Below, in pieces: positions 37,954 to 52,061 of a stretch of 64,000 nt of DNA. The stretch is from Ancylobacter amanitiformis (GTDB lineage Bacteria > Pseudomonadota > Alphaproteobacteria > Rhizobiales > Xanthobacteraceae), in assembly GCF_030814815.1 (NCBI RefSeq), contig NZ_JAUSVR010000007.1, forward strand, positions 124,001 through 188,000, read 5' to 3'. A program made the position numbers and the translations under genes. The notes beneath the pieces were generated by a model. The model did not search any database, was not told the DNA's origin, and saw only the letters and a program-made list of their open reading frames with translations. How positions within the stretch are numbered: position 1 is the stretch's first letter; the number at the start of each line of letters is the position of its first letter.

Positions 37954-37993
37954 GGCTCCGGCCGGCTCCGGCCGGCTCAGGCCGGCTCAGGCC
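37954..37993. repeat. Four 10-bp tandem repeats overlapping the nadB stop
   Basis: GCCGGCTC(C/A)G units repeat about four times between nadC and nadB, and the last one includes the nadB stop codon. Probably a slippage product. Confidence 0.75.
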
Positions 37994-39522
37994 ACCTGCC
38001 GCACATGGGGGGCGCGGGTCTCGGCCAGCGCGGTCTCCGAATGGCGGGCGAGGGCGGCGGGGGCGGGATGATCGGCGCGGAAATGCCCGCCCCGGCTCTC
38101 GGTGCGGCGCAGCGCCGCCTGTGTGACCATGATCGCGACCAGCGAGAGGTCGTCGCCGTCCCGCGCGTTGAGTTCGCCGAGCCGCTGCGCGGCGGCCTCC
38201 AGCGTCGACGCCTCGCGCACCACGCCGACATGACTATCCATCAGCGCGCGAATTTCCGCACGGGCGAGCGAGGCTGCCCGCGCCGGGGAAGGCGCGCGCG
38301 CCGTCCCCGCGCCGGCCTCGCGTCCGGCAATGTCGGCGGCGATCCATCCGGCATAGGCGAGCGCCTCCAGCAGCGAGTTGCTGGCGAGGCGATTGGCGCC
38401 ATGCAGCCCTGTCGAGGCGACCTCGCCACAGGCCCACAGCCCCGGGACGCTGGAACGCCCGGCATCATCCACATTGATACCGCCCATATGGTAATGCGCC
38501 GCCGGCCGCACCGGAATGGGCTGCCGCGCCGGATCGAGCCCGTGCGCGCGGCAGAGCGCGACGACGCCGGGAAAACGCCGCTCCACATCCGCCAGCCGCG
38601 CGTCGAGCACCACGTGGCGGCCTGCCGCGTTCTGCGCGAAGATGGCGCGGGCGACCACGTCGCGCGGGGCGAGTTCCTGCCCCGGCACCTCCAGCATGAA
38701 GCGCTCGCCACAATCGTTGAACAGTTTGGCACCCTCGCCGCGCAGCGCCTCGGTCGCCAGCGGCATGGGTGCGGGGCCGCCCAGAAGGTCCGCCCCGGCC
38801 GGATCGGCGGCGGTGACGATCGCCGTCGGGTGAAACTGCACGAACTCCATGTCGCGCAGCATGGCGCCTGCCCGCGCCGCGAGCGCGAGGCCGGAACCGA
38901 CGGCGCCGAGCGGGTTGGTGGTGGAGGCGTAGAGCCCGCCCATGCCGCCGGTCGCCAGCACCACGGCGTGGGCGGGCAGGCCGGTCACGCGCCCGGCACG
39001 GTCGCGCAGCGCGATGCCGCGCACGGCGCCGGCCTCATCGGGGAGCAATTCGCAGGCGCGCACGCCCTCGATCACCTCGATCGTCGGGCAGGCGCGAGCG
39101 GCCATGGTCAGCGTTTCCAGCACGAGGCGGCCGGTGCCGTCGCCCCCGGCATGGACGATGCGCCGGCGCGAATGCGCGGCTTCAAGCCCCAGCGCGAGGC
39201 GCCCGTCCGGCGCGCGGTCGAACGGCGCGCCGAGTTGCAGCAGCCAGTCGATGGCGCCGGGCGCGGCCGACGCGACGCGACGCGCCACGACGGGCTCGGA
39301 AAGGCCGGCGCCGGCCTTGAGCGTGTCGATGGCGTGATAATCGGGCCGGTCGTCATCGCCGATGGCGGCGGCGATGCCGCCCTGGGCCCAGCCGGTGGCG
39401 GCCTCCGCGCCGAGCGGGGCGGCAACCACCAGCGTCACGGGAAGCGGGGCGAGGCGCAACGCGGTGGCGAGGCCGGCGACCCCGCCGCCGACCACGACGA
39501 TATTCTCGGGCGAATGGCGCAA
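37987..39522 (-). CDS. nadB: L-aspartate oxidase
   Basis: The FAD enzyme that oxidises L-aspartate to iminoaspartate for NAD synthesis. TTG 39522 (reading MRHSPENIVVVGGGVAGLAT), 13 bp after the nadA stop and with GAAAGG upstream, gives 511 residues. An ATG at 39585 would overlap nadA by 50 bp. Key regions: the FAD loop VVVGGGVAGLATAL, GWAQGGIAAAIGDDD, VLATGGMGGLYASTTNP, FVQFHPTAI, and AHYHMGGINVDDAGRSSVPG with GLHGANRLASNSLLEALAY. Product iminoaspartate is unstable and goes to NadA. Confidence 0.93.
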   Translation of the reverse strand: MRHSPENIVVVGGGVAGLATALRLAPLPVTLVVAAPLGAEAATGWAQGGIAAAIGDDDRPDYHAIDTLKAGAGLSEPVVARRVASAAPGAIDWLLQLGAPFDRAPDGRLALGLEAAHSRRRIVHAGGDGTGRLVLETLTMAARACPTIEVIEGVRACELLPDEAGAVRGIALRDRAGRVTGLPAHAVVLATGGMGGLYASTTNPLGAVGSGLALAARAGAMLRDMEFVQFHPTAIVTAADPAGADLLGGPAPMPLATEALRGEGAKLFNDCGERFMLEVPGQELAPRDVVARAIFAQNAAGRHVVLDARLADVERRFPGVVALCRAHGLDPARQPIPVRPAAHYHMGGINVDDAGRSSVPGLWACGEVASTGLHGANRLASNSLLEALAYAGWIAADIAGREAGAGTARAPSPARAASLARAEIRALMDSHVGVVREASTLEAAAQRLGELNARDGDDLSLVAIMVTQAALRRTESRGGHFRADHPAPAALARHSETALAETRAPHVRQVA

Positions 39523-39535
39523 CGCAGGAAGCCTT

Positions 39536-40624
39536 TCAGGAAATGGCGAGCATGCGCTCGACCGCGCGGCGGGCCCGGTCGGCAATGGCCGGGTCGATCT
39601 CGACCGCGTGGGTCATCGTCTCCAGCGCCCGGCGGATATTGGGCAGCGTGATCCGCCGCATGTGCGGGCACAGGTTGCACGGGCGCACGAAGTCGATTTC
39701 GGGATGGCCGACCGCGACATTGTCGGCCATCGAGCATTCCGTGATGAGCACGACGCGGGCCGGCTTCTCGTCGCGCACGTAATCGGCCATGCCGGCGGTG
39801 GAGCCGGCATAATCGGCCTCTGCCACCACCTCCGGCGGGCATTCGGGATGGGCGAGCACGACGATGCCGGGATGGGCCTCGCGCAGGTCGCGGATGTCCT
39901 GCGGGGTGAAGCGCTCATGCACCTCGCAATGGCCCTTCCAGGCGATCAGCTCGATCTCCGGCACCAGTTTCTGCACATTCTGCGCGAGATACTCGTCCGG
40001 CAGCATGAGGATGCGGTTCACGCCCCATTCCCTCGCCACGGCGCGCACCACCTTCACGGCATTGCCCGAGGTGCAGCAATAATCGCTCTCGGCCTTCACT
40101 TCGGCGGAGGTGTTGACATAGGTGACGACGGGCACGCCGGGATAATGCTGGCGCAGCAGGCGGATATCCGCCGCGGTGATGCTATCGGCCAGCGAGCAGC
40201 CCGCGCGCATGTCCGGCATCAGCACGGTCTTGGAGGGGTTCAGCAGCTTGGCGGTCTCGGCCATGAAGTGCACGCCGGCCATGACGATCACGTCGGCATC
40301 CACATTCACCGCCTCGCGGGCTAGCGCGAGACTGTCGCCGACAATGTCCGCCACCGTGTTGAAGATCTCGGGGGCCTGATAATTATGCCCGAGCACGACG
40401 GCGTTGCGCGCGCGCTTCAACTGCTCGATGGCCTCGACGTCGCGGGCGATCAGCGGCCACTCCGCCGGGGTGATGTGCCGGGATACCCGCGCATAGAGAT
40501 GCGGCAACGGCAGCGGGGAAGCGGTGTCAAGCGTGGTTTCGCGCGCCATGGCGGGCGCGGCGGTGGAAACCGGAGCGAAGCCCTCGGCCGGATCGACACG
40601 GGCGGCGGTGTTCACGTCCAGCAT
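39536..40624 (-). CDS. nadA: Quinolinate synthase A
   Basis: NadA condenses iminoaspartate with dihydroxyacetone phosphate using a 4Fe-4S cluster. ATG 40624 has an excellent GGGAGGG ribosome site and gives 362 residues; the upstream start at 40666 lies inside the operator. Three cluster cysteine regions are visible: [10 protein letters not shown] (C143), [12 protein letters not shown] (C183/C184) and RPCNLCPHM (C316/C319). [13 protein letters not shown] and [16 protein letters not shown] are family hallmarks. First gene of nadABC. Two operator-like palindromes precede it, so the operon is probably repressed when NAD or niacin is available. Confidence 0.96.
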
Positions 40625-40635
40625 TGCACCCTCCC

Positions 40636-40656
40636 TTATGCTCTTTTTGAGTATAA
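40636..40656. promoter_or_regulatory. Candidate NAD-biosynthesis operator 1
   Basis: TTATGCTC-N5-GAGTATAA, 7 of 8 positions symmetrical, ending 11 bp before the nadA start on the minus strand. On that strand it contains TATACT, which could be a -10 box. Regulator not in the window. Confidence 0.65.
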
Positions 40657-40699
40657 TTTGGTCCAAAGAAGACCGGGCGACGTGCCCGGCATTTCGAGC

Positions 40700-40738: not shown

Positions 40739-41299
40739 TCACAAAGCCGACGATGGCGGCGCGGATGGCGGCGCGGGCGGCTCGCGCGTTCCGTCGCTGC
40801 CGCTGGCGGGCGGCGTGGCGCCATGCCGGCGCACCGGCACGCCGGCGCGGGATTCGATGAAGCGCTCGATCGGCAGCGCCAGCACCAGCAGCATCAGGGC
40901 GACGGCGATGCCCATGACGATGAGGTGCCAGGAGGCGAGGGCGCAGGCGATGCCGAGCGCCGCCGTCACCCATACGCTCGCCGCCGTGGTGAGGCCATGC
41001 ACGCGGCTGGAATGGCGCTTGCGCAGCACCACGCCGGCTCCGAGAAAGCCGATCCCGGTCATGATGCCCTGGATAATGCCCTGCACCACGCGGCTGGTGG
41101 CATCGGGATGGCCGGCAATGCCGTCGACCCGCATCGCGGTGAGGGCGACCAGCGCCGCGCCCATCGAGACCAGGCCGAGCGTGCGCATGCCGGTGGGCTT
41201 GCCGCGCAGGTCCCGATTGATGCCGATGAGCATGCCGCAGGCCGCCGCCACCAGCAGGCGGAACAGGGCCTCGATATCGTGCGCCGACAGGATGTCCAT
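40739..41299 (-). CDS. MgtC/SapB family membrane protein
   Basis: A 186-residue protein with about five hydrophobic helices. MDILSAHDIEALFRLLVAAA at 41299 is the natural start; upstream in-frame codons lie in tandem repeats. The MgtC signature is clear: GMLIGINRDLRGKPTGMRTL, SMGAALVALT, GIGFLGAGVVLRKRHSSRVH, GLTTAASVWVTAALGIA. The C terminus is a low-complexity Pro/Ala/Ser tail. MgtC relatives help in magnesium starvation and survival in hosts. Its start is oriented with the nad genes but it ends before their operators, so it is not the same unit. Confidence 0.88.
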   Translation of the reverse strand: MDILSAHDIEALFRLLVAAACGMLIGINRDLRGKPTGMRTLGLVSMGAALVALTAMRVDGIAGHPDATSRVVQGIIQGIMTGIGFLGAGVVLRKRHSSRVHGLTTAASVWVTAALGIACALASWHLIVMGIAVALMLLVLALPIERFIESRAGVPVRRHGATPPASGSDGTREPPAPPSAPPSSAL

Positions 41300-41345
41300 G
41301 GCGATCTCGTGAGGCGATCTCGTGGGGCGACTCGTGGGGCGATGG
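41300..41345. repeat. Tandem repeat in the leader of the MgtC-family gene
   Basis: GCGATCTCGTGAG, GCGATCTCGTGGG, GCGACTCGTGGG and GCGATGG follow each other directly upstream of the start codon. It separates this gene from the end of the AroQ-like gene. Confidence 0.7.
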
Positions 41346-41441
41346 TCGCGGCAGGCGATGTTCGTCCACGTGACGTGCGCCGATGCCGCCACCCGGTCAA
41401 GCATCCGCCCGCGCGTGCCGGCGGGCATGCCCCGCTCCCGA

Positions 41442-41900
41442 TCAGTCCGCCCGGCGGATCGCGGCGATCAGCGCCGCGACGGCCTGCGCGTAGCCGTCCG
41501 GGCCGAGGCCGAAGATGCAGCCCGTCACCACCGAGGAGAGCGGCGAATGGTGACGGAAGGGCTCGCGCGTGAACACGTTGCTCACATGAACCTGGATCGC
41601 CGGCGCCGCGATCGCCGCGAGCGCGTCGCGCAGGGCGATGGATGTGTAGGACAGGCTGCCCGCATTGATGACGATGCCGTCCGCCGTGCCGCGCGCCTGC
41701 TGCACCCAGTCCACCAGTTCGCCCTCGCTGTTGGACTGGCGGAAATCGACGGTGCCGCCCTGCGCCTGCGCGCCCGCGCGGCAGGCCTGCGCGATGTCGT
41801 CCAGCGTCAGCGCGCCATAGGGCCCGTGCGGGTCCAGCCCGTAGAGATTGGTGTTGGGCCCGCTGAGGACCAGGATATGGACCGGCCGGGGGGCGCTCAC
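41442..41900 (-). CDS. AroQ-like protein (type II dehydroquinase fold) with altered active site
   Basis: A 152-residue protein with the type II 3-dehydroquinate dehydratase fold: LSGPNTNLYG, RQSNSEGELVDW, NAGSLSYTS, VHVSNVFTREPFRHHS. Tyr28, Asn79, His105, Arg112 and Arg116 match catalytic or binding residues. Three others do not. The lid arginine of the usual GRREP motif is gone (GLDPHGPYG). The His of the HTS motif is Tyr85. The Glu of the EVH dyad is Gln103. It overlaps the upstream gene by ATGA as last gene of a catabolic-looking operon. A housekeeping shikimate role is therefore unlikely; a hydratase or dehydratase acting on another ring acid is my inference. Confidence 0.82.
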   Translation of the reverse strand: MSAPRPVHILVLSGPNTNLYGLDPHGPYGALTLDDIAQACRAGAQAQGGTVDFRQSNSEGELVDWVQQARGTADGIVINAGSLSYTSIALRDALAAIAAPAIQVHVSNVFTREPFRHHSPLSSVVTGCIFGLGPDGYAQAVAALIAAIRRAD

Positions 41901-42322
41901 AGAAGCGGATCCCGCGCGCCGATGGCGGCCAGCCCCGCGCGGGCGACATCCACATCCTGCGCGCCCGTGCCCGAGCCGACGCCGATGCCGCCGACACAGA
42001 CGCCGTCGAGGAGGATGGGCAGCCCGCCCTCCAGATTGGTCAGGCGCTGCCCGGCGGCCAGCGACAGCTTGATCTCGTCCGCCGGGTTGAGCCGCGCGGA
42101 GGGCTGGCGGTGCGAGGCGGCGGTGATCGCCTTGGACAGCGAGGTCTCGCGCGAGAGCAGCTTCGCGCCGTCCATGCGCACGAAGGCGAGGAGGTTTCCG
42201 CCCTCGTCGACGATGGCGATGTTCTGCGGCACGCCCAGTTCGTTCGCCCGGGCGATGGCGGCGGCCAGCATGGCCAGCGCACCCTCATGGGTGAGTTTCA
42301 GTGCGGGACGGGTGAACGGCAT
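41897..42322 (-). CDS. GlcG/HbpS-type heme-binding family protein
   Basis: A 141-residue GlcG/HbpS domain. MPFTRPALKLTHEGALAMLA at 42322 is the start; longer versions run into non-conserved sequence. VPQNIAIVDEGGNLLAFVRM, DGAKLLSRETSLSKAITAA and the glycine-rich end GGLPILLDGVCVGGIGVGSG, then TGAQDVDVARAGLAA, are the family pattern. Relatives occur with glycolate oxidase genes and many oxidative catabolic operons, with unclear biochemistry. It is 26 bp downstream of the DUF1028 gene and overlaps the AroQ-like gene. Confidence 0.87.
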   Translation of the reverse strand: MPFTRPALKLTHEGALAMLAAAIARANELGVPQNIAIVDEGGNLLAFVRMDGAKLLSRETSLSKAITAASHRQPSARLNPADEIKLSLAAGQRLTNLEGGLPILLDGVCVGGIGVGSGTGAQDVDVARAGLAAIGARDPLL

Positions 42323-42348
42323 CGGGTCTGCGCCTCTCTCATCCGGGG

Positions 42349-43026
42349 CTATCGATCGCCCGGCACGCCATAGGACGGCGCCGTGGTGGGGTCGAGCGCG
42401 CGGGTGACATAGGCGTCCATCTGCGGCTTCCACAGCGCCCATAGCGCGGCAAGCTCGGCCATCACGTCGCCCTCCGACCAGTCGATGCGCAAATCCGCGA
42501 CCGGCCAGGCCACCGTGTCGACGATCATGAGGCCGGCCGAGTGCACCGGCCCCGCTTCGCCGCCGGCCGCCACGCCCGCCTGCATCGCCGCCACCAGCCG
42601 GTCGCCGAGATCGGCCTCGTGAAGCGCCTCGAAGGCCGCGACCATCGCCGCCGGCACGCCGGTCGAGGCGAGCAGGTTGCCCGCCGCCGCGACATCCCGG
42701 CCAGAGGCGATGGCATGGATGCCGAGCGTCTTCGCGCCGGAATGGCTGGCGGCCGGCCCCGCCCGGCCCAGCACCACGACCTGCCGGTAGTCGAAGAATG
42801 GCGCCTCCGCCGCGAAACGCGCCAGCACCTCGTCCGGCGAGAGACCCTGCGCCAGCAGGTCGAGCCCCTTGGGGCCGAGAGTGGGATCGGTGATGTTCTG
42901 CGTGGAGACCACGCCGACGCCGGCGCGGGCATGGGCGCAGCGCGCCGCCACCGCCGGCGAGGAGGAGGAAACGGCGATGCCGAACCGGCCCGTGGCGGCG
43001 CAGCGGGCGGAAATGGAGAAGGTCAC
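42349..43026 (-). CDS. DUF1028 family protein
   Basis: A 225-residue protein of the DUF1028 family, which I recall as having an Ntn-hydrolase-like fold and no firmly known reaction. The start is MTFSISARCAATGRFGIAVS, followed by the strongly conserved SSSPAVAARCAHARAGVGVV, STQNITDPTLGPKGLDLL and an AGNLLAS segment. The C-terminal 35 residues (WSEGDVMAELAALWALWKPQ, then MDAYVTRALDP) fit the family end. It lies 13 bp after the RidA-like gene. The context suggests amide or C-N bond chemistry. Confidence 0.88.
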   Translation of the reverse strand: MTFSISARCAATGRFGIAVSSSSPAVAARCAHARAGVGVVSTQNITDPTLGPKGLDLLAQGLSPDEVLARFAAEAPFFDYRQVVVLGRAGPAASHSGAKTLGIHAIASGRDVAAAGNLLASTGVPAAMVAAFEALHEADLGDRLVAAMQAGVAAGGEAGPVHSAGLMIVDTVAWPVADLRIDWSEGDVMAELAALWALWKPQMDAYVTRALDPTTAPSYGVPGDR

Positions 43027-43039
43027 GCGGGCCTCCCGT

Positions 43040-43459
43040 TCAGGCGACGTCGGGGATGACGGCCGTCACCTCGATCTCGACCAGCCATTCCGGCCGGGCC
43101 AGCGCCGAGACCACGAGGCCGGTGGAGACCGGGAACACGCCCTTCAGCCATTTGCCCATCTCCTGATACACCGCCTCGCGGTGGCGGATATCGGTGAGGT
43201 AGATCACCACGCGGCAGATATGGCTGAGGTCGCTGCCCGCTTCCTCCAGCAGCATCTTGATATTGGCCATCGCCTTGGCGGCCTGCTGGCCGGCATCGCC
43301 GATATGCACGCTCTCGCGCGTGTCGAGGTCCTGCGCGATCTGGCCGCGCAGGAACACCATGGTGCCGCGCGCCACCACCGCCTGACACAGATCATTGTCG
43401 AGCTTCTGCTCGGGATAGGTGGCCCGGGTGTTGAAAGGGCGGATGCGCGTATGGACCAT
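43040..43459 (-). CDS. RidA-family protein lacking the canonical arginine
   Basis: A 139-residue RidA/YjgF-fold protein (VFLRGQIAQDLDTRESVHIG, AKAMANIKMLLEEAGSDLSH, CRVVIYLTDIRHREAVYQ). RidA deaminases need an arginine in a PARS motif near the C terminus. Here the matching stretch is FPVSTGLVVSAL, with Ser in its place. It probably belongs to an Rid subgroup without classic enamine deaminase activity. Such proteins often sit in aromatic and heterocycle catabolic operons. The 84-bp gap before it carries four 15-bp tandem repeats. Confidence 0.88.
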   Translation of the reverse strand: MVHTRIRPFNTRATYPEQKLDNDLCQAVVARGTMVFLRGQIAQDLDTRESVHIGDAGQQAAKAMANIKMLLEEAGSDLSHICRVVIYLTDIRHREAVYQEMGKWLKGVFPVSTGLVVSALARPEWLVEIEVTAVIPDVA

Positions 43460-43474
43460 GGCGGGGGCTCTTTC

Positions 43475-43533
43475 GGGCGGGAGTCTTGCGGGCGGAGTTT
43501 CGCGGGCGGGAGTTTCGCGGGCGGGAGTTTCGC
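43475..43533. repeat. Four 14-15 bp tandem repeats between the M20 and RidA-like genes
   Basis: GGGCGGGAGTTTCGC occurs twice perfectly (43504-43533) plus two slightly altered copies before it. It fills the only sizeable gap in the seven-gene operon, in the RidA leader. Confidence 0.85.
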
Positions 43534-43543
43534 GGGCGAAGGG

Positions 43544-44773
43544 TCAGGCGATCGGGTTGGAGGCGAGGTCGAGCGGTGCGCTCAGGCGGGCGGTAAGGCG
43601 GCCCATCATCGCGCCCGCCGCGGCGAGTTCGTCGAGGCCGATCCACTCGTCGGCCTTGTGCGCGCGGGCGATATCGCCCGGCCCGCAGACGAGCGTGGCA
43701 ATGCCGGCCGCGTGGTACAGCCCCGCTTCCGTGCCGAAGGCGAGGGTCACGGGCGGTTCGCGGAAATCGGCCAGCGCGGAAACAAAGCCCAGCGCGGCGC
43801 TGTCCGCTTGCGTGTCGAGCCCGGGATAATCGCTGAGCGTTTCCACGGTGATCTCCGCCTCCGGGGCCTGCACGTGCAGCCGCGCGCGGGCCTTGTCGAG
43901 GATGGCCTTGATGGCGGCATCGAGGGCGGCGCTGTCGGTGCCGGGCAGGGTGCGCGCCTCGAATTCCAGCGTCGCGCGATCCGGCACCAAATTGAGCGCC
44001 CCCCCGCCATGAAGGGAGCCGACATGCAGGCTCGCATAGGGCGGCTCGAAAGCGGCATCGGTGGTGGCGCGCAGCGTGCGGCCGAGCGCGAACAACCCGC
44101 TCGCGACCTCGGTGGCGGCTTCCACCGCACTGGCTGCGCGGTGCAGCAGGGCCGAGTGCCCGCCGCGCCCGGTAATGATGACGCGGCGGGCGAACTTGCC
44201 CTTGTGCGCGCGGGCGACCTTCATCGCGGTCGGCTCGCCGACGATGCACAAAGCGGGCGGCACGGGCAGGCTCGCCACCTCCCGCACCAGATCGGGCGCG
44301 CCGAGGCAGCCCAGTTCCTCGTCATAGGAGAAGCACAGATGCACCGGCGTCGCGGTGGCCGCCCGCTTGAAGGCGCCCACCTGCGCCAGCACGACGGCGA
44401 GGAAGCCCTTCATGTCGGAGGCGCCGCGCCCATGGAGGCGGCCATTGCGGATGTCGGCGCGGAACGGGTCGCTCGCCCAGTCCTGTCCCGCCACCGGCAC
44501 CACGTCGGTATGGGCGGAGAGCGCGATGCCGGGCCGCTCGGTTGGGCCGATCGTGGCGATCAGCGAGGCCTTGTCGCCGGCTTCATTCGGGATGAGCCGG
44601 CTGGCGATGCCGTGGCGTTCGAGATGATCGGCGATGAAATGGATGATCGGCAGGTTCGTGCCGGCGCTGACCGAGGCAAAGGCGATGAGCCGGCCCAGCA
44701 GGTCGATGACGTCACCGTCCGCCGCGCCGGACGCGCGCCCTGCCAGACCCTGCGCCCGCGCCCCGCTCGGCAT
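43544..44773 (-). CDS. M20-family deacylase, acetylornithine deacetylase-like
   Basis: A 409-residue zinc peptidase/deacylase. ALSAHTDVVPVAGQDW gives the first metal His and catalytic Asp, GRGASDMKGFLAVVLA the bridging Asp, and CFSYDEELGCLG the catalytic Glu pair. The dimerisation domain (about 185-295) and a late His ligand region (FGTEAGLYHAAGIATLVCGP) complete it. Overall it is closest to ArgE. Its place 3 bp after a flavin reductase gene and before RidA-like and DUF1028 genes suggests an N-acyl or amide intermediate of a degradation pathway. Arginine synthesis is less likely, so no argE symbol is given. Confidence 0.88.
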   Translation of the reverse strand: MPSGARAQGLAGRASGAADGDVIDLLGRLIAFASVSAGTNLPIIHFIADHLERHGIASRLIPNEAGDKASLIATIGPTERPGIALSAHTDVVPVAGQDWASDPFRADIRNGRLHGRGASDMKGFLAVVLAQVGAFKRAATATPVHLCFSYDEELGCLGAPDLVREVASLPVPPALCIVGEPTAMKVARAHKGKFARRVIITGRGGHSALLHRAASAVEAATEVASGLFALGRTLRATTDAAFEPPYASLHVGSLHGGGALNLVPDRATLEFEARTLPGTDSAALDAAIKAILDKARARLHVQAPEAEITVETLSDYPGLDTQADSAALGFVSALADFREPPVTLAFGTEAGLYHAAGIATLVCGPGDIARAHKADEWIGLDELAAAGAMMGRLTARLSAPLDLASNPIA

Positions 44774-44776
44774 GCG

Positions 44777-45268
44777 TCAGGCGACCTCCAGCTTGTGATA
44801 GGCGCGGTTGGAATAGACCAGCGGCTTGGCCGCATCGCTCGCCAGCGCGAGCACCTCGCCGGCTATGATGTGATGCGTGCCGAACTCGAACATGCCGGCG
44901 ATGCGGCAGTCGAAGCGGCACAGCGCGCCCATCAGCACCGGTGCGCCGGTGTGCAGCCGCTCCCATTCGGCTACCGCGAAGCGGTCATCGGCCAGTTCCG
45001 GGATCAGGCCGGCGAAGCTGTCGGCCACCCGGTGCTGGCCATGCGCGAGGATGTTGGCGGCGAACACGCCGTTGGCGATCAGCGTCGGCAGGGTACGGCT
45101 GCCCTTGTTGAGGCAGAACAGCACCGAGGGCGGTTCCATCGACAGCGAGCAGAGCGAGGAGACGGTGACGCCCGCCCGTCCCGCCTCGCCGTCCGTGGTG
45201 ACCACGGTCACGCCGGAGGCCGTGCGGCCCATGGCTTCGCGAAACAGGGCGATGTCGATCACGCTCAT
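44777..45268 (-). CDS. Flavin reductase component (HpaC-like)
   Basis: A 163-residue NAD(P)H:flavin oxidoreductase. MSVIDIALFREAMGRTASGV at 45268 overlaps the hpaB-type stop as ATGA. Family words are TASGVTVVTTDGEAGRAGVT, SSLCSLSMEPPSVLFCLNKG, GVFAANILAHGQ and GTHHIIAGEVLAL. The long open frame that continues upstream only reads the monooxygenase gene in another phase. It would supply reduced FAD to the partner monooxygenase. Confidence 0.93.
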   Translation of the reverse strand: MSVIDIALFREAMGRTASGVTVVTTDGEAGRAGVTVSSLCSLSMEPPSVLFCLNKGSRTLPTLIANGVFAANILAHGQHRVADSFAGLIPELADDRFAVAEWERLHTGAPVLMGALCRFDCRIAGMFEFGTHHIIAGEVLALASDAAKPLVYSNRAYHKLEVA

Positions 45269-46719
45269 TTTCCCGTTCCCATCACCTGGTCCGACAGGCC
45301 GGCCGCCTTGCGCACGAAGTCGAGCGGGCCGGAAAAGTCGAAGGCGTTGTACACCGCATTGAGATGGTTGAAATGCGGTGCCTGCGCAAACTGCACGAAG
45401 GTCAGGCGATGGCCGGCATAATCGGAATTGAGCAGGTCGCGGGCGAAGGCGAGCAACTTGCGCCGGTCCTCGGATTCCCACTGCTTGTTCAGCGAGTAGA
45501 ACTTCTTCAGCCACTCGCCCGAGCCTTCCGCCGCGAAGGCGGCGGCGTTCGGTGTGACGCAGATCTGCCCGCCGCACAATTCGCGGGCGATGTGCATCAT
45601 CGCCGGCAGGTTGGCGCAGGCATGGATGCGCCCGGCATAGAGCATCGACTGGTTGGGCATCAGCAGCCCGCCCGGGCTCTTCTCCGCCAGCGTGATCGCG
45701 GCGGTGAGGTGGGCATTGATGCCCTCGCGGTAGCACACGAGATCGGCGAGCTTCTCGCGCACCGACTGCAGCTTTTCGAGGCCGGTCTGCCGGGCGTTGA
45801 ACATCGCCGCGCCGATCATCATGTCGGCGACGTAGAGCAGGCGGTGCACATAGGGGAAGGCCGAGTAGCGGTGCAGCGTCGCGCGCACGAACTGCGCCGC
45901 CTTGGTGTGGCGATAGAAGAACACATTCTCCCAGGGGATGAGCACATTGTCGAAGATGACCAGCGATTCCACCTCGTCGAACTTGTTGGCGAGCGGGTAA
46001 TCCCTGGGGTTGGTGCGCCCGGCGAAGGAGGAGCGGCAGATCTGCCGCACGCCCGGCGCGCCCATCTCGATGATGCCGCCCACCGCGTAGTCGGACAGCG
46101 TCTCGTTGGTCCACGCGCCGACGGTGGGCTTGAGGAAGGCCTGGTCGGCATAGGCCGCGGCGGTCTCGTATTTGGCGCCGCGGATGATGATGCCCGCGTC
46201 GGTCTCCTTCACGACATGCACCATCATGTCGGGATCCTGATCCTGCGGGGCGAGGGAACGGTCGCCCTTGGGATCGGTATTGGCCGAGACGTGGAAAATG
46301 TCGTTGTCGAAGATGTTCTGCACATGCCGGTCGACATTGTCGGCGAAGCGGGGATCGAACTCCGCCAGCACGTCGCGCCCGTCCATGAGTGACCAGACTT
46401 CGCCGATCGTCTCGTCGCCGACGCGGGTCACGACGCCGCCAATGTCCTGCATCACGGCGTCGACGGCGGCGATCTTGTCGCTCCAGTCCTTCGTCTCGCG
46501 CGGCGGCTTGTAGAAGATCGTGTTGCGCTTGTTGTCCTCGACATAGGTGAGGCGGTCCTGGTAGCGCGCCTCATGGGCCATGTCGTACATGCGCGCCCGC
46601 ACGTCGACGATCGGCTTGAAGGCGGGGTGCTGGGTGACGTCCTTTACCCGCTCGCCGTCCATCCAGATCTCGCGGCCGTCCTGGAGACCCTGCCGGTACG
46701 CGTCGCCTGTGCGGATCAT
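45265..46719 (-). CDS. HpaB-family FADH2-dependent aromatic monooxygenase, oxygenase component
   Basis: A 484-residue group D flavin monooxygenase of the 4-hydroxyphenylacetate 3-hydroxylase family (MIRTGDAYRQGLQDGREIWM start at 46719). Typical regions are WMDGERVKDVTQHPAFKPIV, DPKGDRSLAPQDQDPDMMVH, VKETDAGIIIRGAKYETAAA, and the flavin-site stretch VIFDNVLIPWENVFFYRHTK. It is similar in length to the shorter HpaB enzymes. Relatives hydroxylate phenols, chlorophenols and pyrrole-2-carboxylate, so the substrate cannot be fixed. No homoprotocatechuate genes are nearby, which argues against 4-hydroxyphenylacetate. First gene of the seven-gene operon. Confidence 0.9.
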   Translation of the reverse strand: MIRTGDAYRQGLQDGREIWMDGERVKDVTQHPAFKPIVDVRARMYDMAHEARYQDRLTYVEDNKRNTIFYKPPRETKDWSDKIAAVDAVMQDIGGVVTRVGDETIGEVWSLMDGRDVLAEFDPRFADNVDRHVQNIFDNDIFHVSANTDPKGDRSLAPQDQDPDMMVHVVKETDAGIIIRGAKYETAAAYADQAFLKPTVGAWTNETLSDYAVGGIIEMGAPGVRQICRSSFAGRTNPRDYPLANKFDEVESLVIFDNVLIPWENVFFYRHTKAAQFVRATLHRYSAFPYVHRLLYVADMMIGAAMFNARQTGLEKLQSVREKLADLVCYREGINAHLTAAITLAEKSPGGLLMPNQSMLYAGRIHACANLPAMMHIARELCGGQICVTPNAAAFAAEGSGEWLKKFYSLNKQWESEDRRKLLAFARDLLNSDYAGHRLTFVQFAQAPHFNHLNAVYNAFDFSGPLDFVRKAAGLSDQVMGTGK

Positions 46720-46767
46720 GCGGTGCTCCCTTTTCCTCTCAGGAAATATTGCGCTTTCCCCATGGAT

Positions 46768-46783
46768 CGATAAAATATTATCG
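46768..46783. promoter_or_regulatory. Candidate LysR operator in the hpaB-type/lysR divergent region
   Basis: CGATAA-AATA-TTATCG, a perfect 6-bp inverted repeat in a notably AT-rich 110-bp gap, 49 bp from the hpaB-type start and 46 bp from lysR. Confidence 0.5.
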
Positions 46784-46829
46784 TTCGTTCCTCGAAATAG
46801 AAAATTCTGATGCGAGATAGAGAATTCGG

Positions 46830-47774
46830 ATGAATGTCTCCCTCCGCGCGCTGCGCTACGTGGTGACAACCGCCGATTTCGGCAATCTGACCGAGGCCGC
46901 GCGGCACCTCAACGTCTCGCAGCCCTCGATCTCGGCCGCGATCGCGCAGTTCGAGGCGGAGTGCGGCGTGCAGCTCTTCGTGCGCCACCATGCCAGGGGC
47001 GTCACCACCACCATGGCCGGCACCCGCATCATCAACGAGGCGCGGCTGCTGCTGAACCATGCGCGGGATTTCGGCCAGAACGCGCGGGCGATGGCCGACG
47101 AGGTGCGCGGCGAGATCGCGGTGGGCTGCTTCTGGACCGCCGCCACCCATTTCATGCCGGGCCTGCTCACGCGCTTCGCGCAGAGCCATCCCGGCATCAC
47201 GGTGCGCCTCGACGAGGGCGACCAGCAGCAGATCCTCGACGCGCTGGTGTCGGGGCGCACCGAACTCGCCCTGTCCTACGAGTTCGCGCGGCCGGAGGAA
47301 GTGGTGGCCGAGCCGCTCGCCGAACTGCCGCCCTATGCCGTGCTCCCCGCCGACCATCGGCTCGCGCGGCGCGAGCGCATCAGCCTCGCGGAGCTGGCCG
47401 GCGAGCCCTTCATCCTGCTCGATCTGCCGCATTCGCGGGACTATTTCATGAGCCTGTTCCGTGCGGCCGGGGTGGAGCCGCAGATCGCCTTCCGCTCGCG
47501 GGTTTATGAGCTGACGCGCGGGCTGGTCGGCCAGGGTCGGGGCTACACCATCCAGAACGTGCTGCCGCGCACGCAGATCACCCATGATGGCGGGCGCGTT
47601 GCCGCCGTGCCGCTGACCGACCGGCTGGAGCCGGTGCGCCTTGTCAGCCTCAAGCTGCGGCGGCAGGCGCCGCGCCCGGCGGTGGAAGTGTTCGCCCGCC
47701 ATCTCGCGGCAGCCTTCGCGCCGGGCGGGCTGTTCGAGCCGGGCACGCTCTCGCCGCGCACCACGGTGCGCTGA
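46830..47774 (+). CDS. LysR-family regulator of the adjacent catabolic operon
   Basis: A 314-residue LysR protein. The helix-turn-helix covers about residues 3-62 (LRALRYVVTTADFGNLTEAA, RHLNVSQPSISAAIAQFEAE). The effector domain contains GEIAVGCFWTAATHFMPGLL and ELALSYEFARPEEVVAEPLA. It is divergent from the monooxygenase operon with a palindrome between them, and is followed at 111 bp by a reductase gene on its own strand. Aromatic acid or heterocycle ligands are usual for this group. Confidence 0.9.
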   Translation: MNVSLRALRYVVTTADFGNLTEAARHLNVSQPSISAAIAQFEAECGVQLFVRHHARGVTTTMAGTRIINEARLLLNHARDFGQNARAMADEVRGEIAVGCFWTAATHFMPGLLTRFAQSHPGITVRLDEGDQQQILDALVSGRTELALSYEFARPEEVVAEPLAELPPYAVLPADHRLARRERISLAELAGEPFILLDLPHSRDYFMSLFRAAGVEPQIAFRSRVYELTRGLVGQGRGYTIQNVLPRTQITHDGGRVAAVPLTDRLEPVRLVSLKLRRQAPRPAVEVFARHLAAAFAPGGLFEPGTLSPRTTVR

Positions 47775-47885
47775 ATCGGCCGGCGTTTTACTGGCAGGAA
47801 ACAGCCGCCACCGGTACAAGGTGGCGACACCGGGCCTTTCAGGCTATCAGGCCGGTCCCGGTGGGGAGCGAGAGGGAGGCGCGCG

Positions 47886-48821
47886 ATGAGCCGCGAGGCG
47901 CTGGTTTTCTACAGCCCGGTCGATGATGCGACGGCGTGGCGCGAGGCGCTGACCGCCGAGCTTCCCGATCTCGATTTCCGCGTCGACCCCGAGGTGGGAG
48001 ACCCCAGCGATATCCGCTATGCCCTGGTCTGGGTGCCGCCGCGCGGCTTCTTCGCGCGCTTTCCCAATCTTCAGCTCGTCACCAATCTGGGCGCCGGCGT
48101 CGACGCGCTGCTCGGGCGGGACGATCTGGTGCCGGTGAAGTTTTCCCGCCTCAACGACCCCGGCATGACCGCGATGATGACGAGCTATGTCGTCTTCGCC
48201 GTCACCCGCTACGCCCGCGATATCCCGGTATTCGAGCGGGCCAAGCGGCGCGGGGAATGGGAATATGTCCATCCGCGCCCGCTGGCCGACATCAAGGTCG
48301 CGGTGCTGGGACTGGGAGAACTCGGCGCGCCGGCGGCGCGGGCGCTGGCCGGCATGGGCTACACCGTCACCGGCTGGTCGCGCTCGCCCAAGGAAATTGC
48401 CGGCGTGGCGTCGGAGACCGGCCGCGCGGGGCTGGAGCGTGTGCTCGCGGATAACGAGATCATCGTCAGCCTGCTGCCGCTGACGCCGGATCTGCGCGGC
48501 ATTCTGGGCGCGCGGGAATTCGCGCTGATGCCGAAGGGCGCGAAATTCATCAATGCCTCGCGCGGCGCGGTGGTCGACGAGGCAGCGCTGATCGCCGCCC
48601 TGCGCACGGGCCATGTCGCCGAGGCGACGCTGGATGTGTTCGAGACCGAGCCGCTGCCGCCCGATCATCCCTTCTGGACGCTCGACAATGTGCTGATCAC
48701 CCCGCATCTCGCCAGTATCACCGTGCCGAAGCTGGCCGCGCGCGACGTGGCGCAGAGCATCCGCCGGATGCGGCAGGGGCTGGCGCCGCTGCACCAGGTC
48801 GATCCCGCCCGCGGCTACTGA
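47886..48821 (+). CDS. D-2-hydroxyacid dehydrogenase, glyoxylate/hydroxypyruvate reductase A type
   Basis: A 311-residue NAD(P)H-dependent reductase. The nucleotide-binding motif is VAVLGLGELGAPAARALAGM. Catalytic Arg, Glu and His lie in FINASRGAVVDEAAL, VFETEPLPPDHPFW and LITPHLASITVPKLAARDVA, as in GhrA. It may reduce glyoxylate, hydroxypyruvate or the 2-oxo acid released by the neighbouring operon. Its end overlaps the convergent GGDEF-EAL gene by 7 bp. Confidence 0.88.
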   Translation: MSREALVFYSPVDDATAWREALTAELPDLDFRVDPEVGDPSDIRYALVWVPPRGFFARFPNLQLVTNLGAGVDALLGRDDLVPVKFSRLNDPGMTAMMTSYVVFAVTRYARDIPVFERAKRRGEWEYVHPRPLADIKVAVLGLGELGAPAARALAGMGYTVTGWSRSPKEIAGVASETGRAGLERVLADNEIIVSLLPLTPDLRGILGAREFALMPKGAKFINASRGAVVDEAALIAALRTGHVAEATLDVFETEPLPPDHPFWTLDNVLITPHLASITVPKLAARDVAQSIRRMRQGLAPLHQVDPARGY

Positions 48822-51058
48822 TCCGCCGGCCGACCCGAAGGGGCCGCGTCGCCCGCATTCGGGGCGTCGGCATTCGGGACGTCGACTTGCGGGACGTCGA
48901 CTTGCGGGGCCACCGCCAGCAGGTCCGTAGCCAGCAGGTCTCGCGCATCGGTCGGGCGGTGGAACAGGAAGCCCTGGTACATCATCGCGCCGAGTTCGCG
49001 CAGCTTGGTGAGCTGGATCTCCTCCTCCACCCCTTCGGCGACCAGTTCGAGGCCGAGCGTGCGGGCGATGGAGATGGCCGCCATCATGAGCGCCTTGTCG
49101 ATCGGGTCGCTCAGCAGGTCGCGGGTCACGCTCCAGTCGATCTTGATGCCATCGACCGGCAGGCGCTTCAGCGCCTCGAACGAATTGTAGCCATTGCCGA
49201 AATCGTCGAGATAGACATAGATCCCGCGCGCGCGCAGATCGGTGAGAAAGCGCGCGATCTCGGCAATGTCGTCAATTCCCTCGCTTTCCGTCACCTCGAT
49301 GCGGAAGGCGCTTTCCACGCCCGGATGCAGGTCCAGCAGGTCCATCAGGCTGCGCTGGAAGGCCGGGTCGGTCAGCGAGCGGGCACCGATATTGGCGGAG
49401 ACATAGTGGCCGGCGCCGCGCTCGATGAGATGGATCGCCAGATCCACCACATGCCGGCAGACCCAGCTATCGATCCGGCCCATCAGCCCGAGCCGCTGGG
49501 CTGCCGGCAGGAATTCCGCCGGCTGGCAATAGGTGCCGTTCTCGTCCACCAGCCGGATCAGCGCCTCATAGCCGAGCGGCCGGAGGTCGGCATCGACGAT
49601 GGCCTGCAAATGCAGGTGGAAGCGGCCCAGCTCGAAACCGAGCCGGATTCGCTCCGCCCAGCTGAGCCGCTGGCGGGTGTTGCTCACCTTGGGGTCGCCG
49701 AGATCGTAGAGCTGCACGCGGTCACGGCCGGATTCCTTGGCGACATAGCAGGCAGTGTCGGCGGCCGCGATCAGGCTGGAGACGGTCTTCGCATTGCCGT
49801 TGCCCCGCACAAGGCCGATGCTGAGCCCGAGCGTGAAGGCCCGGCCGCTCACGTGGAACGGACTTTCGCGCACGGTCGTGTTGAGCCGGCGGGCAATGCG
49901 CAGCGCATCGCTCTCCTCGATATTGCTGAGCACCAGGGCGAACTCGTCGCCGCCGACCCGCGCCAGCATGTCGTCGCTGCGCAGCTGGGCGCGCAGGACA
50001 TGGGAGAGCTCGCGCAGCACCTCGTCGGCGGCCGCGTGACCCACGGCATCGTTGACGCCCTTGAAGTGATCGATGTCGATCATGCCGACCCAGAGACTGC
50101 GCGGCTCGCCGTCGCGCAGATACTGGTTGAGCCGCTCCTCCAGCGCGAAGCGGTTGGGCAGACCGGTGAGCAGGTCGCTGCGCGCCTGCATGGCGACGAG
50201 GCGGGCGAATTCCGCCAGCGCCTCGCTCTGCTGGCGCAGCTGCTCGCGCATGGTGATCAGTTCGCTCTCGCGCCGCTTCTGCGCGGTGAGGTCGGCCCAG
50301 ATGCCGACCGCGCGGCCCGTGCCCATCCGCCGCAGGCTGGCCAGCATCCAGCGCCCGTCGCGCAGGGGCACCTCCGCGTGATGTTCGCGGGCGTCGAGCA
50401 ATTGCACGAGAACGTTGTCGGCGATGGCCTCGTCGACCTCGTCCGCGAACATGCCCCGGCGGCGCGCCTCGACGATGCGTTCGGAAAGTGCGCTGCCCAC
50501 CGCGAGGTCGACGCCCACCTCGGCGAAGCGGCGGCGCATGCCGTCATTGGCGAGCAGGATGCGGTTCTCGGCATCGAGCAGCACGAAGCCCTCGCCGACA
50601 CCGTCGATCGCCTCCAGCAGCTGGGCCTCGGCGGCCTTCAGCCGGGTTATGTCGCTCCACACGCAGATCGTGCCGCCATCGGGGGTGCGACTTTCGCGCA
50701 CCTGCACCCAGCCGCCGTTCTGCAGTGGAATGTCGAAGGGTTTGCCATCGGCCGCCGCATGGTGGCGCATGCGTTCGGCGATCGCGTCATCGCCTCGCGG
50801 CTCACGGGAGGCGCCGTCCGGCACCGAGGCGAGGGCGAAGAAGCTGAGGCCGTGCAGGTCGCCAAGCGGCTCAAGAAGAGGGAACAGTTCCAGAAAGCGG
50901 CGATTATGGGCAACCAGCCGGTCCTGGGCATCGAACAGTGCGAAGCCATCGGCCATGGCGTCGATCGCCGCCATCCACCGGCTCCGCTCGCGGCCGTCCG
51001 CCGTGTCGTCCGCACGCGGCGATCCAGCATATGACCGGTTCGGATGTCCAGTATTCAT
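48815..51058 (-). CDS. PAS-GGDEF-EAL cyclic-di-GMP enzyme
   Basis: A 747-residue signalling protein with no transmembrane helix. Two PAS domains come first (about 25-140 and 145-260). The GGDEF domain keeps ARVGGDEFALVLSN and an RSDD inhibitory site exactly five residues before it. The EAL domain keeps YEALIRL, NIGARS, TESEGIDD, YLDDFGNGYNSF, KIDW and EGVEEE. Both synthesis and breakdown of c-di-GMP are therefore possible. ATG 51058 follows AAGGCGGG; ATG at 51112 is an alternative. The C terminus has short QVDVP/NADAP tandem units. The PAS domains probably sense a cytosolic signal. Confidence 0.93.
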   Translation of the reverse strand: MNTGHPNRSYAGSPRADDTADGRERSRWMAAIDAMADGFALFDAQDRLVAHNRRFLELFPLLEPLGDLHGLSFFALASVPDGASREPRGDDAIAERMRHHAAADGKPFDIPLQNGGWVQVRESRTPDGGTICVWSDITRLKAAEAQLLEAIDGVGEGFVLLDAENRILLANDGMRRRFAEVGVDLAVGSALSERIVEARRRGMFADEVDEAIADNVLVQLLDAREHHAEVPLRDGRWMLASLRRMGTGRAVGIWADLTAQKRRESELITMREQLRQQSEALAEFARLVAMQARSDLLTGLPNRFALEERLNQYLRDGEPRSLWVGMIDIDHFKGVNDAVGHAAADEVLRELSHVLRAQLRSDDMLARVGGDEFALVLSNIEESDALRIARRLNTTVRESPFHVSGRAFTLGLSIGLVRGNGNAKTVSSLIAAADTACYVAKESGRDRVQLYDLGDPKVSNTRQRLSWAERIRLGFELGRFHLHLQAIVDADLRPLGYEALIRLVDENGTYCQPAEFLPAAQRLGLMGRIDSWVCRHVVDLAIHLIERGAGHYVSANIGARSLTDPAFQRSLMDLLDLHPGVESAFRIEVTESEGIDDIAEIARFLTDLRARGIYVYLDDFGNGYNSFEALKRLPVDGIKIDWSVTRDLLSDPIDKALMMAAISIARTLGLELVAEGVEEEIQLTKLRELGAMMYQGFLFHRPTDARDLLATDLLAVAPQVDVPQVDVPNADAPNAGDAAPSGRPADQ

Positions 51059-51275
51059 TATACCCGCCTTGGTCCGCCCACCCTCTACCTCGCATGTCGT
51101 ATTCAGCAACATGGCGAGACATTATCCGTTCACCCAGGGATACAAGCACCCAGCGTTCACGCGGCCGTGCATTTCAGTATTATTCTGCGGCAGGAGCAAG
51201 CCATCAACCATAAATGATTTGAAAATAAGTCAATAACGTTTCCAGTTTCAAAGTATCAGGCAGGAGGATGTGCGG

Positions 51276-51470: not shown

Positions 51471-52061
51471 ATGATGCAACGCCGTGTTCTCGTGCTTCTC
51501 GCTGTCTTCGTCATCGGTGCCGTGGCGATGGTGGCGGGCGCTCTGGCTCTGCTGCCGCGCGGTGCCGCGCCGGTGGCGAGCGCCAGTGGCGTTGGCGGGC
51601 CGTTCCAGCTGGTCGACCAGGACGGTCGCGCCGTGACGCAGGCCGATTTCGCGGGCGAGCCATTTCTCGTGTTCTTCGGCTTCACCCATTGCCCCGATGT
51701 GTGCCCGACGGCGCTCTACGACCTGTCGCAGTTGTTCGAGGCGTTGGGGCCGGATGCCGACAAGGTTCGCGGCCTGTTTGTGACCGTCGATCCCGAGCGC
51801 GACACGCCTGACGTGATGAAGTCCTATCTCGGCAGCTTCGATGCCCGCATCCGCGGCCTTTCGGGATCGCCCGAGCAGGTTGCGGCGATCATCCGCGCCT
51901 ACCGCGTCTATGCCAAGAAAGTGCCGACCAGCGACGGCGACTACACGATGGACCACACCGCCATCGTCTATCTCATGGGCAAGGACGGCAGCTTCATCGC
52001 GCCGTTCAACCTCAAGCGCCCCCCCGAGGAGGCGGCCGCCGACCTGCGGCGCTATCTCTAG
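51471..52061 (+). CDS. SCO1/SenC-family copper chaperone
   Basis: A 196-residue thioredoxin-fold protein that delivers copper to the CuA site of cytochrome oxidase. An N-terminal anchor helix (VLVLLAVFVIGAVAMVAGAL) faces the domain to the periplasm. Metal ligands are C74 and C78 in FTHCPDVCP and H162 in TMDHTAIVYL. The start is ATG 51471 or 51474. Its 3' end overlaps the antisense end of a truncated glycosyltransferase. No cytochrome oxidase genes are in the window. Confidence 0.92.
   Translation: MMQRRVLVLLAVFVIGAVAMVAGALALLPRGAAPVASASGVGGPFQLVDQDGRAVTQADFAGEPFLVFFGFTHCPDVCPTALYDLSQLFEALGPDADKVRGLFVTVDPERDTPDVMKSYLGSFDARIRGLSGSPEQVAAIIRAYRVYAKKVPTSDGDYTMDHTAIVYLMGKDGSFIAPFNLKRPPEEAAADLRRYL

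Follow-up and report, generated by a model that had tools for sequence, protein, structure and literature searches.

A hin-like operon of Ancylobacter amanitiformis, probably for the degradation of an imidazole-ring carboxylic acid, with an HpaB-type monooxygenase in the place of HinF

The hinFLHG genes and the regulatory gene hinK were described in the catabolism of histamine and imidazole-4-acetate (ImAA) by Pseudomonas putida U and P. aeruginosa (PMC8231116, PMC6467879). Table 3 of PMC6467879 gives hin2 as hinFLHG, and places HinF, HinL, HinH and HinG in the classes FAD-monooxygenase, enamine deaminase, amidase and EC 3.5.1.8 amidase, respectively. HinK is described as responding to ImAA and controlling hinFLHG (PMC8231116). 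Here we analyse a related operon in a 64,000-nucleotide stretch of the Ancylobacter amanitiformis genome (contig NZ_JAUSVR010000007.1, positions 124,001 to 188,000), which is called the window below and whose first letter is position 1. The operon consists of seven genes on the minus strand, encoding, in order, an HpaB-type monooxygenase, a flavin reductase, an M20 deacylase, a Rid-like protein, a DUF1028 protein, a GlcG-like protein and an AroQ-like protein, and is divergent from a LysR gene that is followed by a GhrA-like gene. We propose, with a probability of roughly 0.7, that this operon degrades an imidazole-ring carboxylic acid, most likely ImAA or a close relative, by the logic of the hin pathway, with HpaB acting in the place of HinF. 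An earlier interpretation made from the DNA letters alone (the sequence-only reading) had named these nine gene families, the layout on one strand with an 84-bp gap and the divergent LysR gene, all of which were confirmed by Pfam searches, open reading frames and junctions, and had suggested an uncharacterised catabolic operon for an N-heterocyclic acid. The catabolic role is supported by the HinK-like regulator, the gene families and the neighbours of related genes; the operon is not wholly uncharacterised, because on these same grounds its core matches the hin pathway. The core is thus of an already known type, and what differs is the HpaB first enzyme and the three conserved extra genes.

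The operon and the hin system have in common a HinK-like LysR regulator, the lack of a ring-cleavage dioxygenase, as the sequence-only reading had stated for the operon, and apparently the Rid-like, DUF1028 and M20 genes. Unlike the hin system, the operon opens with HpaB and a separate reductase instead of an FMO (flavin-containing monooxygenase)-like flavoprotein, adds the AroQ-like, GhrA-like and GlcG-like genes, and contains no histamine oxidation genes. No gene for the enzymes leading from histamine to ImAA (HinC/HinD, or histamine dehydrogenase plus aldehyde dehydrogenase) was found in the operon, to which the search for HinC/HinD was confined. Putative counterparts of HinL, HinH and HinG are present as the Rid-like, DUF1028 and M20 proteins, matched to the Hin proteins by class and order.

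The regulator is one link to the hin pathway. The best solved matches of the LysR protein (46830–47774, plus strand) are PDB 3fzv and 6m5f (HinK of Pseudomonas aeruginosa), at 243 bits each, the next regulator scoring 94, and in a Foldseek comparison HinK 6m5f ranked first, with 38–40% identity by chain. By sequence and predicted structure, the protein is of the HinK type, far above other solved LysR proteins. An AT-rich block between LysR and HpaB holds the palindrome CGATAATATTTTATCG (46768–46783), a candidate LysR operator. All 14 loci L038–L051 have, like the window, the motif AATATTTTA(C/T)CGATC upstream of HpaB; among these, the perfect palindrome occurs in the window and L038 only. The HinK-like regulator would sense the imidazole acid and switch on the divergent promoter.

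The HpaB-type flavin-dependent monooxygenase (484 aa; 45265–46719) matches Pfam HpaB_N and HpaB. Family membership and a separate flavin reductase are common to the operon and the two-component HpaB/HpaC systems. Unlike those systems, the operon lacks a catechol pathway, and its HpaB falls under the NCBIfam equivalog cut-offs (222 bits against 480; 160 against 885), has changed active-site positions and shares only 25–32% identity with the other paralogues of its relatives. The best solved relative is Thermus HpaB, and in the phmmer alignment Glu103 and Ser145 of the operon protein occupy the positions of Thermus Tyr104 and His142, which we take to hold the phenol substrate. R99, E103, S145, N147, D149 and R154 are invariant in 112/112 family rows, and E103, S145 and N147 are replaced in 5/5 outgroup paralogues. 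Judged by these sequence features, and as had been anticipated, the protein is something other than a standard 4-hydroxyphenylacetate hydroxylase. We know of no HpaB member that attacks an imidazole ring. The flavin reductase (44777–45268; Pfam Flavin_Reduct), whose gene overlaps the HpaB stop in an ATGA, would supply HpaB with reduced flavin.

The Rid-like protein (43040–43459; Pfam) lacks the arginine of imine deaminases, which is reported as essential for imine hydrolysis by RidA (PMC4433059). Among the 71 rows with a residue at the corresponding position 112, Ser was found in 66, Cys in 4, Phe in 1 and Arg in none. Rid proteins adjoining FMO-type oxygenases have Ser (30/31) or Cys (1/31) at this position, in 31 loci picked for an adjacent Rid (L160, L163 and L166 of the 30 FMO loci described below being omitted). 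Nearly all Rid rows of both cluster types have Ser or Cys in place of the arginine, a further link of the operon to imidazole breakdown. The DUF1028 protein (42349–43026; Pfam) was modelled with a predicted local distance difference test (pLDDT) score of 91.6, and Foldseek matched the model to 2imh at 1e-16 and then, weakly, to proteasome and HslV subunits from 1.4e-3. Thr2 is kept in 63 of the 64 rows with a residue there, and the protein likely has an N-terminal nucleophile (Ntn)-hydrolase-like fold with Thr2 as the nucleophile. A literature search on DUF1028 found no paper. The ArgE-like M20 metallo-deacylase (43544–44773; Pfam) passes the NCBIfam AcOrn-deacetyl cut-off, and H88, D90, D120, E152, E153, E180 and H372, presumably the metal and catalytic residues, are kept at ≥95% in 34 rows.

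The association of these genes was examined in the best 80 of 492 HpaB relatives with named loci, gene families being counted by an identity threshold per family and a 60-bit floor. Rid was found in 63 of the 80 loci, DUF1028 in 55, LysR in 54, the reductase in 41, GhrA in 27, AroQ and M20 in 26 each, GlcG in 25, an SBP8 transporter in 22, glutathione S-transferase (GST) in 17, HutD in 16, PhyH in 10, histamine dehydrogenase in 7, zinc alcohol dehydrogenase in 5 and Rieske in 4. In 20 control loci of distant HpaB paralogues (25–32% identity) from the genomes of the window and its relatives, DUF1028 was absent (0/20) and Rid was matched once, weakly (1/20). The association of the operon genes in loci of HpaB relatives thus exceeds chance as judged against loci of distant paralogues, and gene content is conserved. 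Gene order is conserved in part: among the genes looked for, the exact seven-gene order was found in 3/80 loci (L038, L050, L051) and, with a GST gene inserted, in 5 more (L039–L043), all eight from Ancylobacter, and outside these loci the operon genes are rearranged or interrupted. Most other loci of the genus carry ABC transporter, HutD and GST genes, which were not seen in the window locus or its nearest relative L038. The nearest named HpaB locus is that of A. tetraedralis (99% identity). HpaB of the operon family was found at ≥58% identity in 25 of 30 Ancylobacter genomes, the genome of the window included, and at ≥87% in 22; in broader samples it was found in 29/385 genomes of the class (E 1e-150) and 9/398 of the phylum (E 1e-100).

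Clusters resembling hinFLHG were found with either type of oxygenase. In B. multivorans, Klebsiella and other genomes, Rid, DUF1028 and M20 (argE) come in this order after a gene for an FMO-like flavoprotein, as in the published hinFLHG order, and from this gene order HinF appears to be the FMO-like flavoprotein. Among 30 FMO loci of the phylum sample, Rid (27/30) and DUF1028 (25/30) lie within 1.5 kb. The order HpaB-RidA-DUF1028-argE occurs on two Paracoccus plasmids, and an FLHG-like order also in L086. Both types of cluster were observed near histamine genes. The neighbours of FMO-RidA-DUF1028 in Leisingera include hut genes, aldehyde dehydrogenases and a relative of histamine dehydrogenase (65%). 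Near HpaB-Rid-DUF1028 of Dongia lies a gene scoring 1052 bits to histamine dehydrogenase 6de6 and 532 bits to trimethylamine dehydrogenase. Histamine dehydrogenase relatives at ≥60% were found in 10/106 fetched loci, Dongia included, where the 106 comprise two loci without HpaB (L118 and L119) and an apparent repeat of L051 (L037); L106 was the one of the ten compared with solved structures. The distance between such a gene and an HpaB orthologue is <7 kb in Dongia, four Rhodococcus, two SAR324 metagenome-assembled genomes and two Rhodobacterales plasmids, and R. jostii also holds an aspartase relative (59%). The HutD genes counted above in 16 of the 80 loci likewise favour the proposal.

The distribution of the two oxygenases suggests that HpaB likely replaces the FMO (HinF) as the ring hydroxylase. 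FMO was found at ≥55% identity in 31 of the 398 genomes of the phylum sample (55 at E 1e-60, distant paralogues included). HpaB of the operon family was found in 0/12 FMO genomes tested, the best matches being 29% paralogues in two, and seven f215 genomes with FMO gave no HpaB match at 1e-30. Conversely, no FMO above 43% was found in four Rhodococcus genomes and G046, all of which hold histamine dehydrogenase and HpaB. L214 has Rid-DUF1028-LysR-AroQ-GhrA with an FMO where HpaB would be expected, and its genome gave no HpaB match at 1e-30. The possibility that HinF is itself of the HpaB type was considered, and the survey of the phylum sample argues against it. A HinF-type FMO is absent from the window operon, where HpaB stands in its place, and the nearest in the genome is at 43%.

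The three genes without a hin counterpart mostly accompany one branch of the HpaB family. The AroQ-like protein (41442–41900; Pfam DHquinase_II) shares family and overall sequence with type II 3-dehydroquinase (132 bits to 1v1j). Unlike that enzyme, most cluster-bound copies carry Asp for Arg (24/29 rows) and Tyr for His (28/29), at positions that we take to be catalytic in 3-dehydroquinase; Arg was found in 1/29 rows and His in 0/29. A second AroQ in the genome scores better (194 against 157 bits). The GlcG/HbpS-like protein (41897–42322; Pfam HbpS-like) has NahX as its best solved match. The GhrA-like 2-hydroxyacid dehydrogenase (47886–48821, plus strand; Pfam 2-Hacid_dh_C) scores 203 bits to GhrA, under the cut-off of 403; it, the reductase and the Rid-like protein are each under the NCBIfam cut-off of their best-scoring named relative. 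In a tree for which 110 HpaB loci were given (L059, L077 and L126 yielding no row), the window falls in a 42-member clade, clade A, with support of 1.0. Counting loci of ≥12 kb (32 of 41 clade-A relatives and 53 of 70 others) with the thresholds given above, AroQ was found in 26/32 clade-A loci against 4/53 others, GhrA in 26/32 against 3/53, GlcG in 24/32 against 2/53, and histamine dehydrogenase in 0/32 against 9/53. These clade-A counts are not independent, because 16 of the 41 relatives share the genus of the window. Nor is the gene set exclusive to clade A: in Aminobacter MSH1 all of AroQ, GhrA and GlcG accompany a non-A HpaB, and in L214 AroQ-GhrA accompanies an FMO. Both branches are represented, by one HpaB copy each, in Bradyrhizobium YR681 (L056) and in Halotalea (L063).

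By analogy with the hin pathway, HpaB with its flavin reductase would convert the ring of the imidazole acid to an imidazolone, instead of HinF. The DUF1028 protein, as a HinH-like ring-opening amidase with Thr2 in its active site, would open the imidazolone by hydrolysis, giving an N-formimino amino acid. As the proposed HinL, the Rid-like protein would take ammonia off the formimino group or help the tautomer that undergoes hydrolysis, and the M20 protein, as a HinG-type N-formyl amino acid deformylase, would remove formate to leave an amino dicarboxylate, aspartate in the case of ImAA. We infer all of these reactions, the substrate and which of the two hydrolytic steps comes first. The small 2-oxo acid predicted by the sequence-only reading is not the expected end product; an amino dicarboxylate, which is aspartate in the hin pathway itself, is expected instead, along with formate and ammonia.

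Several observations weigh against this proposal. The F-L-H-G order does not occur in the window, where M20 precedes Rid and DUF1028, and HinF was equated with the FMO through gene order. FMO and HpaB occur together in six loci, so HpaB need not perform the step of the FMO, and Dongia also holds both. Some clade-A loci, such as two from Methylobacterium, have no Rid, DUF1028 or M20 within 9 kb. The hin pathway, as published in the sources cited above, has no step for the AroQ-like, GhrA-like and GlcG-like proteins. The nearest homologue of histamine dehydrogenase in the window genome is at 46% and the nearest aspartase relative at 42%, and histamine dehydrogenase is missing from the HpaB clade of the window (0/32); for these reasons histamine is not indicated as the source of the acid. 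Because the clade is linked to AroQ/GhrA/GlcG and has no histamine dehydrogenase, its acid may differ from ImAA.

A refinement of the proposal, to which we give a little under an even chance, is that clade A is a specialised branch whose HpaB acts on another imidazole compound, such as imidazole-lactate, imidazolepropionate or an N-methylated acid, and in which the AroQ-like, GhrA-like and GlcG-like proteins and GST handle the side chain before or after Rid-DUF1028-M20. The enrichment of AroQ/GhrA/GlcG, the contrast in histamine dehydrogenase (0/32 against 9/53) and the genomes with one copy per branch (L056 and L063) favour such a branch; the occurrence of the set in Aminobacter MSH1 and of AroQ-GhrA with an FMO in L214, and the share of the genus of the window in the counts, tell against it. 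A slightly less probable form holds that clade A represents a separate imidazole-acid pathway with a substrate other than ImAA, in which HpaB attacks the imidazole ring, and the dehydroquinase-fold protein without catalytic Arg and His and the GhrA-like reductase perform a new side-chain reaction.

Substrates other than an imidazole acid fit the data less well. HpaB might hydroxylate pyrrole-2-carboxylate, for which a Rhodococcus monooxygenase is known; DUF1028 or M20 would then hydrolyse the lactam, and release of ammonia would leave 2-oxoglutarate. This route would end in a 2-oxo acid, as the sequence-only reading had expected, but the histamine dehydrogenase of the Rhodococcus loci and the HinK-like regulator of the window make it improbable. 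Homarine (N-methylpicolinate), picolinate or another pyridine carboxylate is slightly less probable again: the cluster is carried by marine bacteria, and the Rieske oxygenases between Rid and DUF1028 in L102, L108 and L109 are possible N-demethylases or ring activators, but the window operon has no Rieske gene, and the regulator and the histamine dehydrogenase links favour imidazole. Least credible is a standard 4-hydroxyphenylacetate or phenol hydroxylase with ring-cleavage genes elsewhere. The Pfam domains and the Thermus relative would suit such an enzyme; its scores lie far under both equivalog cut-offs, Glu and Ser replace Tyr104 and His142 in all 112 rows, and no catechol-type gene was found among 20 representative neighbours scanned. 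The Rut pathway of pyrimidine degradation, to which the operon had been likened, proved a loose analogy: a flavin oxygenase, a reductase and a Rid member are common to both, but the oxygenase family and the hydrolases differ, no RutA-type (luciferase-like) oxygenase was found in the operon by Pfam, the Rid-like protein lacks the arginine, and the RutF and RutC equivalog cut-offs lie well above the operon proteins (reductase, 148 against 255 bits; Rid, 35 against 169). Pyrrole-2-carboxylate, homarine and Rut were thus set aside as poorer fits to the HinK-like regulator and the histamine dehydrogenase neighbours, and degradation of an imidazole acid by hin logic is preferred.

Junctions within the operon are short gaps, apart from the ATGA overlap of HpaB and the reductase, the 84-bp gap beside the Rid-like gene and a 4-bp overlap at the AroQ-like gene. 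Promoter and terminator scans scored no better than shuffled sequence. Below the operon lies an MgtC-family gene (40739–41428), and past it on the same strand (37987–40666) lie genes for an FAD protein (Pfam FAD_binding_2) that we take to be NadB and for NadA, quinolinate synthase; aspartate is the starting point of quinolinate synthesis. Past GhrA lie genes for a PAS-GGDEF-EAL protein (48815–51112) and SCO1/SenC (51471–52061). Elsewhere, paired HpaB copies of the operon family lie a few kilobases apart in L078, L080, G174, G277, G367 and G443. Some HpaB clusters are accompanied by genes with an FAD-synthetase domain (Pfam FAD_syn; L122 13487–14059, L120 5529–6503), with similar matches in L121, L123 and L127, and these may supply FAD to the clusters. 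Between or near Rid and DUF1028, Rieske oxygenases were observed in L064, L102, L108 and L109, and PhyH oxygenases in L076, L079, L085, L087, L090, L098, L103–L105 and L107; these perhaps act on other imidazole compounds. In Dongia (G800, C2:236179–239527), the FMO homologue was matched in two parts next to a further histamine dehydrogenase relative, and either a disrupted gene or an error of assembly could account for the split.

What would the proposed pathway mean for this gene family? A widely scattered gene set, whose members carry labels such as 4-hydroxyphenylacetate hydroxylase, acetylornithine deacetylase or dehydroquinase, would be assigned to the breakdown of imidazole in Alphaproteobacteria, Rhodococcus and SAR324. 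According to the proposal, which can be tested, a non-orthologous enzyme has taken over from the ImAA monooxygenase; the analysis also singles out the AroQ-like protein, which is conserved and altered at its catalytic residues. DUF1028 and the arginine-less Rid protein would thereby gain a definite place in a pathway.

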